A DNA stretch of 54,678 nt from positions 1 to 54,678 of the forward strand of contig JACQWO010000042.1 of NCBI GenBank assembly GCA_016209225.1, in the 5' to 3' direction. The position numbers and the translations under genes are program-made. The DNA is from Desulfobacterales bacterium. GTDB lineage: Bacteria; Desulfobacterota; UBA8473. Shown here one piece after another: positions 5,413 to 52,705 of the stretch; position 1 is the stretch's first letter; every line of letters begins with the position of its first letter. Below the pieces are notes generated by a model. The model searched no databases, was not told where the DNA came from, and saw only the letters and a program-made list of their open reading frames with translations.

Positions 5413-6741
5413 ATGGCTGAGCCTGCAAAGGAAATTGTCGTTGATCCGGGCTTAGACGAAACGATAAAGAAACTTACCCCGAAGAAGATAGAAGACACGA
5501 TAAATAGAGCCTTAACTAAAGGGGCTGCTGCCCGCTTAAAGGTCTACATGCAGACCTGTGTTCACTGTGGCTTATGTGCAGAGGCTTGTCATTTTTACCT
5601 CTCCCATGACAAGGATCCCCGTTTTTCGCCTGTTGGCAAAGTGAAGCAGACCCTCTGGGAGATAATAAAGAGAAAGGGCAGGGTGGATGGGGAGTTTATT
5701 AAAAACTGTTCGAGGATAGCCCACACAGAGTGCAATGTCTGCCGGCGTTGCAGCATGTACTGTCCATTCGGCATCGACATGGCATATCTTCTTCTTCTGG
5801 TGCGCAGGATATGCGCCTTATTAGGTGTAGTACCCCAGTATCTTCAAGACACGGTCAACAGCCATGCGGTTACTATGAACCAGATGTGGGTCAAGCAGGA
5901 TGAATGGATCGATACCCTCCAGTGGCAGGAGGAAGATGCTCAGGATGAGGTAAAGAATGCGCGTATCCCCCTCGATAAAGAGGGGGCAGAGATCATGTAT
6001 TCGGTTATAGGCCCGGAACCGAAATTCCTTGCCCAGCTTTTGGGCAATATCGCGATAATTATGACTGTGGCGGGCATGGATTGGACAATGCCTTCCTTTG
6101 ACGGCTGGGATAATAGCAATATGCCCATGTATTCAGGCGATTTTGAGACCATGGCCCGAGTTGAGAGAAAACATTTTGAGGCGGCATTCAAGCTTAAGGC
6201 AAAAAAGATCGTGATGGGGGAATGCGGGCACGCATTTCGGGGTGCTGTATATGATGGTCCCAAATGGCTGGCATGGAAGGAGCCGCCTGTACCCGTGATT
6301 CATGCTGTCCAATTTTACTATGAGCTGATCAGGGATGGAAAGATAAGAATAGCCAGAAAATTCGAACAGCCCGTTACAATTCAGGAACCGTGTAATATTG
6401 TGAGGGGCAGGGGGCTGGGGGATATGCTCCGTTATATCATGCGGGCTACCTGTGAGGATTTTAGGGATGTTTCTCCCCGGTATGAACACAACTACTGCTG
6501 CTGTGCAGGCGGAGGCGTCATCAATTGCGGGCCACCCTGGAAGAAGAGTCGGGTAGAGGGCAACAAAGTCAAGGCAGAACAACTCAAGGCCACAGGCGCC
6601 GAGGTAGTCGTCACCCCCTGCCACAACTGCCATAGCGGTATTGAAGATATAGTCAACTATTATAAGCTTGGGATGCATGTTAAATTCTTTAGTGAGATAC
6701 TGGTGGATGTTATGGAGGTTCCTGAGGATCTGAAAGTTTGA
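5413..6741 (+). CDS. HdrD-like Fe-S protein (HmcF/TmcB/DsrK type)
   Basis: A 442-residue cytoplasmic-side subunit. Two [4Fe-4S] motifs lie near residues 43-55 (CVHCGLCAEACH) and 100-115 (CNVCRRCSMYCPFG). The C-terminal half has a complete CCG domain (EPCN, NYCCC, TPCHNC), which in the HdrD family binds the noncubane [4Fe-4S] cluster for disulfide chemistry; the first CCG half is reduced to GECGHAF, as in DsrK. It should pass electrons between the membrane cytochrome b upstream and a thiol or Fe-S partner. AGGAGG seven bases before ATG 5413 fixes the start; an in-frame TTG six bases earlier lacks this spacing. The third Cys in NYCCC is a small oddity. The physiological partner is unknown. Confidence 0.88.
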   Translation: MAEPAKEIVVDPGLDETIKKLTPKKIEDTINRALTKGAAARLKVYMQTCVHCGLCAEACHFYLSHDKDPRFSPVGKVKQTLWEIIKRKGRVDGEFIKNCSRIAHTECNVCRRCSMYCPFGIDMAYLLLLVRRICALLGVVPQYLQDTVNSHAVTMNQMWVKQDEWIDTLQWQEEDAQDEVKNARIPLDKEGAEIMYSVIGPEPKFLAQLLGNIAIIMTVAGMDWTMPSFDGWDNSNMPMYSGDFETMARVERKHFEAAFKLKAKKIVMGECGHAFRGAVYDGPKWLAWKEPPVPVIHAVQFYYELIRDGKIRIARKFEQPVTIQEPCNIVRGRGLGDMLRYIMRATCEDFRDVSPRYEHNYCCCAGGGVINCGPPWKKSRVEGNKVKAEQLKATGAEVVVTPCHNCHSGIEDIVNYYKLGMHVKFFSEILVDVMEVPEDLKV

Positions 6742-51407: not shown

Positions 51408-51683
51408 TTAGTTGACTCTTTTTCCATACATAACACTTCCATGCTTTACGGTTATAATGTACTCAATTTCCTCTCCTATCTCAGGTTTTGTCTCAAATTC
51501 CTTTAATATTACTGCCTTCCCATCCTTTGTTTCAATTAATGGCAGCCCATCCAGTCTGCGAAATGAACTTACAACGCCCTTATGAATGCTTTCCTCTTCT
51601 TCCTGACGTTTGACATTATGGACTTTACAGGTAAGGCTTTTTGCAGAAGAATCTTTGTCATTTGAATTGTCTTTTATGGACAT
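51408..51683 (-). CDS. Hypothetical small protein, probable integron cassette gene
   Basis: A 91-residue acidic-basic protein without membrane segments. The C-terminal half (GLPLIETKDGKAVILKEFETKPEIGEEIEYIITVKHGSVMYGKRV) looks like a small beta barrel, perhaps OB-like, but I do not recognise a family. AGGAG lies before ATG, and the leader starts at the attC-like site at 51718, 35 bp upstream, as expected for a cassette. Its own attC, if it had one, would lie where MITE copy C now begins. Confidence 0.6.
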   Translation of the reverse strand: MSIKDNSNDKDSSAKSLTCKVHNVKRQEEEESIHKGVVSSFRRLDGLPLIETKDGKAVILKEFETKPEIGEEIEYIITVKHGSVMYGKRVN

Positions 51684-52308: not shown

Positions 52309-52458
52309 TCAATCTTTAACTTTGGTGTCTTTTACGGGTTGATCCTCAACCGTACACGATTTTTTCATTCATGTGTTAATGCCGAGCTTTGGTAAAACCC
52401 ACATATTCAATATAAAATATACAGCCACGATCGATATAACAATCAGGATTTCTTTCAT
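52309..52458 (-). CDS. Probable 49-residue membrane selenoprotein with in-frame UGA
   Basis: From ATG 52458 (AGGGGAG upstream) a 29-residue protein is read: MKEILIVISIVAVYFILNMW then VLPKLGINT, one membrane helix. A TGA follows at 52369-52371, and the frame continues MKKSCTVEDQPVKDTKVKD to TGA at 52309. Small deltaproteobacterial proteins of the form helix-WVLPKLGVxT-(C/U)-M-x2-S-C are known to me, so the TGA stands where homologues have Cys or selenocysteine, giving U-x4-C. A hairpin (52333-52354) has its loop 23 bases after the TGA, as bacterial SECIS elements require. Known: the SECIS geometry. Inferred: recoding. A plain 29-residue protein is the alternative. Confidence 0.62.
52333..52354 (-). 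promoter_or_regulatory. Candidate bacterial SECIS hairpin
   Basis: On the minus strand TACG-GTTGA, loop GGA, TCAAC-C-CGTA: nine base pairs with one bulged C. The first loop base is G, 23 bases after the in-frame TGA. These features fit the bSECIS rule (16-37 bases, G among the first loop bases). Confidence 0.55.
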
Positions 52459-52705
52459 TACTCTCCCCTTTTAAGGGTTCCTTAAAGGGGCCTGCCCCGA
52501 CATTTGGATTATATTGTTGCGAGTTTGCCCCCGAACCCACTAATCTTCAAACCTCTTCAACAAAAAGGAACCCTTTTTAAAGAAAATATATGACTTCTCT
52601 TTAATTTGTCAAGGAAAATCTAACCATTATGTGCTTTGATATCTGAGCTACAGGCATCAATTCATCGATAATCCGAATTAGAAAATATCTTCTTCCATCC
52701 TTGAC

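Follow-up and report, generated by a model that had tools for sequence, protein, structure and literature searches.

SELENOK and SELENOS are eukaryotic single-pass membrane selenoproteins that carry selenocysteine (Sec) close to the C-terminus of a flexible tail in the cytosol, and SELENOS forms a Cys-Sec bond. The small bacterial protein family described here resembles them in layout only, an analogy for which no sequence relation is claimed, and both eukaryotic proteins differ from it in being longer and in using a eukaryotic 3'-UTR SECIS. The known bacterial selenoprotein families share with it a recoded UGA, a downstream SECIS hairpin and, as proposed here, decoding by tRNA-Sec and SelB, and they often have U/C motifs (PMC13188914). 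A 2026 catalogue counts 119 families and subfamilies of prokaryotic selenoproteins (PMC13188914). No one-helix U-x4-C microprotein of about 50 residues appears in its table of 119 families; the closest listed spacing is the UxxxxU of TsoB, but TsoB is a rhodanese/DsbD-fusion-like protein (PMC13188914).

We also compared 28 members of the family with Pfam and NCBIfam (June 2026 release). No match exceeded the cut-off, and the weak ones seem to reflect chance similarity with transmembrane stretches. As regards Pfam, NCBIfam and PMC13188914, the family is uncatalogued; UGA recoding as such is a known mechanism, and the novelty lies in the family. According to the authors of deep-Sep, nearly every selenoprotein has many Cys homologues, and those that lack them may be misidentified by their method (PMC12013277). 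Being short, liable to be cut to about 29 residues by ordinary gene callers and with no Cys form found, this family is expected to escape both the callers and such predictors.

Gene layout in the window

The window is the whole stretch of DNA that was analysed, 54,678 nucleotides long. Direct translation of its minus strand from 52458 to 52309 gave MKEILIVISIVAVYFILNMWVLPKLGINT-U-MKKSC-TVEDQPVKDTKVKD. Together with the homologues, this translation defines a complete CDS of 49 residues (52309-52458, minus strand) with Sec at residue 30, MKEILIVISIVAVYFILNMWVLPKLGINT-U-MKKSCTVEDQPVKDTKVKD. Read directly, the gene consists of 29 codons, an in-frame TGA (52371-52369), MKKSC, 14 more residues and a final TGA stop (52311-52309). 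A Shine-Dalgarno-like AGGGGAG (52463-52469) lies 4 nt 5' of the ATG, and many homologues also carry purine-rich sites similar to it 5' of the start. The direct reading agrees with an earlier note on this DNA, which had described a 29-residue frame with its own ribosome site, the TGA, and a continuation of MKKSC plus 14 residues.

The same note had proposed a small one-helix membrane selenoprotein, a proposal supported by homologues that run past the UGA and by the presence of tRNA-Sec, selA and selD in the genome. We infer from conservation that 52309-52458 is very probably a genuine selenoprotein gene whose UGA is decoded as Sec, and this high degree of confidence covers the selenoprotein claim only. 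We also considered the final TGA as a second Sec codon in the window's genus; this candidate was dropped, as the extensions beyond the final TGA differ among close relatives.

Homologues and the in-frame UGA

To find homologues, we wrote Cys at the UGA and searched 99 genomes, namely the window's own and 98 relatives. Matches were obtained in 35 of the 99, each with one in-frame TGA, and one match also crosses a TAA. A profile (A1) was then built from 28 members and run against 395 genomes of the phylum. It matched in 168 of these 395 sampled genomes, representing 112 of 246 genera, which makes the family widespread, though missed by gene callers and by the catalogues examined. Among the matches listed (about 160), all contain an internal TGA, and in some the match extends over a second stop, usually the terminal one. 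The weaker matches, fetched separately, either contain the TGA or stop just short of it, and reading on shows the TGA.

We went through 95 distinct loci with scores above a fixed limit, base by base. All 95 have UGA at this position, although the query carried Cys, and no Cys codon was found at the Sec site among the 95 loci read. Because of the Cys in the query, any Cys homologue should have gained score rather than lost it; none turned up. The earlier note had supposed that homologous small proteins have Cys at the TGA position, which was not borne out. The family therefore looks Sec-only at the level of the loci read, and since no Cys homologue was found, the usual criterion of Cys/Sec pairing cannot be applied to it. 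If true, Sec-only conservation would mean a membrane chemistry that Cys cannot replace, and the family makes it testable when Cys cannot replace Sec.

Two homologues on contigs filed elsewhere also have UGA: L019, on a contig filed as Rhodopirellula (Planctomycetota), and L197, on a contig from a viral collection. The plasmid and phage collections searched gave no match. In L019 (around position 6001), the frame after Sec holds the hairpin region as a 27-nt tandem repeat and then continues into a longer protein.

If the UGA were a true stop, the gene would encode a 29-residue membrane peptide, and the hairpin would be a terminator or a regulatory element. A hydrophobic peptide of 29 residues is plausible alone, and the conserved LPKLGxxT sits before the UGA. 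However, the internal codon is UGA in every locus and never UAA or UAG (0 of 95), whereas the final stops of the same 95 loci are mixed (40 UAA, 32 UGA and 23 UAG). The earlier note had named homologues ending at this position without a C-terminal extension as a result that would speak against a selenoprotein; instead, all 95 continue beyond the UGA. The frame 3' of it is free of stops for at least 13 codons in every one of the 95 loci, compared with 46 and 43 loci for the other two frames. Within this downstream part, the commonest codons are TGC (44) and TGT (25) at +5 and GAT (38) and GAC (13) at +9 in the 95 loci, so that Cys and Asp are kept while their codons vary synonymously. With a Sec marker in every carrier genome as well (see below), we consider a true stop very unlikely.

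An AUG immediately follows the UGA in 55 of the 95 loci, the window included. This would suit stop-start coupling, in which the UGA closes a first peptide and the next AUG opens a second small in-frame peptide. Such coupling is extremely unlikely given that the AUG is missing in the remaining 40 loci, that the stop is never one of the other two, and that a covarying hairpin lies at SECIS spacing. Decoding of the UGA as Sec remains the preferred reading in what follows.

The downstream hairpin

The putative bacterial SECIS of the window (52333-52354) reads UACGG-UUGA / loop GGA / UCAA-(C)-CCGUA, with nine pairs, one bulged C and the loop GGA at 52345-52343; its assignment draws on folding, on shuffles over the 95 loci and on covariation. 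The stem begins 15 nt after the UGA and the loop 24 nt after. The earlier note had placed a nine-pair hairpin with a G-first loop 23 bases after the TGA. The hairpin is present and a distance of about 23 fits the loop, but not the stem. The SECIS geometry claimed there is right, since a GGA loop at +24 has G in its first two positions and lies within the range of 16-37 nt from the UGA given for bacterial SECIS loops (PMC13188914).

By itself, the hairpin of the window is of modest stability (-8.7 kcal/mol, with 9 of 200 shuffles as good), and a longer stretch around it is unremarkable by folding (z -0.76). The case therefore rests on the relatives, with their invariant UGA, open frame and covarying stem. 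A bSECIS-like hairpin was found in 95 of 95 loci with its loop 16-25 nt from the UGA, a spacing that is partly built in, since to be accepted by the scan a loop had to lie at +16 to +37 and carry G in its first two positions. Across the 95 loci, the hairpins averaged -10.0 kcal/mol; when the codons of these proteins were shuffled synonymously, the mean was -5.5 kcal/mol. For 58 of the 95, at most one of 20 shuffles was as stable.

Covariation was assessed on an unselected set of 68 distinct arm pairs in the +24 register, with no choice by pairing. In this set, 291 of 476 cells were paired and 119 two-sided changes were counted; the highest values reached by any of 1000 shuffles were 245 and 81. 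A subset of 22 hairpins was picked by a predicted loop near +24, a choice that favours pairing, and two of them are second hairpins of members with two UGAs; here, 90.8% of cells were paired and changes occurred on both sides at 7 of 8 pairs. The subset scored 0.794 versus 0.276 when shuffled, and sliding the partner by one column lowered pairing to 49% or less. The family thus supplies a set of SECIS elements with strong covariation.

An in-frame UGA alone would not tell Sec apart from another amino acid read under a variant code, or from a decayed gene. Against both stands the covariation of the hairpin. In the window, ORFs encoding ordinary products terminate as expected for table 11, and decay would not give the same pattern across 168 genomes of many families. 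We regard the chance that either applies as close to negligible.

Selenocysteine machinery in the host and in carrier genomes

The window's genome contains tRNA-Sec (75.9 bits), SelA (633 bits) and SelD (390.6 bits). Its selD gene has an in-frame TGA at codon 18, the usual Sec position, and 18 nt beyond this UGA comes the GGG loop of a hairpin. SelD thus shares the decoding machinery with the small protein, but it is an enzyme of a known selenoprotein family and is unrelated in sequence. The earlier note had named selA, selB, selC and selD as genes to look for in the genome; tRNA-Sec, selA and selD were there, whereas selB was not found in the window's assembly. This absence is likely an assembly gap, because two genomes of the same genus have selB over the cut-off (G004, where it is full length, and G001) and the window's genome is in 95 contigs.

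Two observations on these genes may be added. The window's genome (G000), in which selB was not found, is rated 98.5% complete, and its contig C32 carries tRNA-Sec 170 bases from the contig start. The selD gene at L060:172-1224 (minus strand), with an in-frame UGA at codon 18, shares a contig end with an ORF that, by reading, is YedE-type transporter-like.

Every one of the 168 carriers has at least one of tRNA-Sec and SelB. tRNA-Sec was found in 151 of them, and the other 17 (G001 and sixteen more) all have SelB over the cut-off. Among the non-carriers, 35 gave no tRNA-Sec match; 16 of these have SelB and 19 have neither, so the gene occurs in 0 of 19 genomes lacking both markers. The resulting table of carriers against Sec markers (168/0 vs 208/19) gave a one-sided Fisher p of 2e-5, for genomes that are related rather than independent and some of which are incomplete. 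Co-occurrence with tRNA-Sec alone was not significant (151/17/192/35, p 0.13). A relaxed tRNA search added 7 more tRNA-Sec over the cut-off, and SelB accounted for the rest. In the proposed mechanism, the UGA at codon 30 would be decoded as Sec via tRNA-Sec and SelB, guided by the hairpin that overlaps the codons just downstream.

Protein architecture and topology

A single transmembrane helix is predicted at about residues 3-22 (52393-52452), followed by a conserved P-K/R-x-G motif, from the average hydropathy of 94 members and from AlphaFold2. On average over the 94 members, the hydrophobic stretch extends from about position -26 to -8 relative to Sec. The helix is followed by P in 93 of 94 members, then K or R, then G in 93 of 94, and T precedes Sec in 80 of 94. 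The conserved turn reads WILP-K/R-LG-x-x-T, with Sec seven residues past the helix-ending Pro. AlphaFold2 predicted a helix over residues 2-24, with pLDDT values of about 85-90 over residues 1-20 and a low-confidence tail below 70 (mean pLDDT 69.6); the short, Lys-rich C-terminal tail is probably disordered. We found no solved structure of a relative. The N-terminal flank averages 0.49 K+R with a net charge of -0.32, and the C-terminal part averages a net charge of +2.7 (94 members). Under the positive-inside rule, this charge bias suggests an N-out, C-in topology with a cytoplasmic tail.

Cys35 (52354-52356) would be the partner of Sec in the U-x4-C motif. The first Cys after Sec is at +5 in 68 of 94 members and at +6 in 11, together 79 of 94. 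The U-x4-C pair pointed out in the earlier note is therefore usual without being universal. Seven of the 94 members have no Cys before the first stop after Sec, and three of the seven are members with two UGAs.

Genomic neighbourhood and possible role

On the same strand 3' of the gene, the window encodes a DUF5661 protein, an unnamed 91-residue protein and a PAC2 protein; on the other side, the next named gene encodes a divergent Sir2 protein. The 91-residue protein (51408-51683, minus strand) has no Pfam match and, in those relatives from the genus that we examined, is found downstream of the selenoprotein gene. ORF clustering in 62 loci (mostly about 7 kb) found no conserved gene partner, so the neighbours gave no clue to function. 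Named by reading the sequences, with no Pfam scan, the commonest neighbours in these loci were sigma-54-type response regulators (16) and an EngB-like GTPase (9). They were followed by a D-Ala-D-Ala-carboxypeptidase-like protein (8, on the opposite strand) and an FmdB-like zinc ribbon (8), with CcdA-like (6, with TlpA-like in 5) and MobB-like (4) proteins being rarer.

The product would be a bitopic membrane microprotein, anchored by its one N-terminal helix, with the selenol most likely held at the inner membrane face. There, Sec would react with an oxidant or electrophile, or hand electrons to a partner, and U-x4-C would close a reversible selenenylsulfide in most members. This specific redox role, with a selenol at the inner face and a U-x4-C selenenylsulfide in most members, is our preferred view but is proposed only tentatively, and members without Cys imply that selenenylsulfide cycling cannot be the whole story. 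The protein may instead be a selenoprotein in which Sec does not pair within U-x4-C but binds a metal or metalloid, or depends on a partner from outside. One subgroup (L155, L156, L159 and L170) keeps Sec with no Cys in the tail, so that Cys is dispensable there, and the FmdB-like zinc ribbons among the neighbours would also fit a metal ligand. Since Cys is nonetheless kept at +5 or +6 in most members, and no metal-binding motif is evident in the family, we hold this alternative to be possible but doubtful.

Members with two UGAs

Three members, L160, L166 and L167 (genomes G206, G269 and G289, of one genus), contain a second in-frame UGA. They read LGLPS-U-GAP...PIPT (PVPT in L166), then U-DGPSC or U-DGQSC-SIG. 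The first Sec unit is without Cys in all three. A separate hairpin with a G-rich loop comes after the second UGA, and the stretches concerned fold at -13.3, -13.2 and -12.5 kcal/mol. Judged from these sequences, the arrangement looks like a duplication of the whole unit of Sec, U-x4-C and hairpin. We think it reasonably probable that the loci together make up a widespread family of one-helix membrane microproteins in which the key residue is Sec only, and which includes a sublineage with a duplicated Sec, motif and SECIS unit.

A similar-looking small membrane protein was also seen at L176 (G024:C11:91505), where the order is reversed to Cys-x2-U (SFGCPTUATKK).
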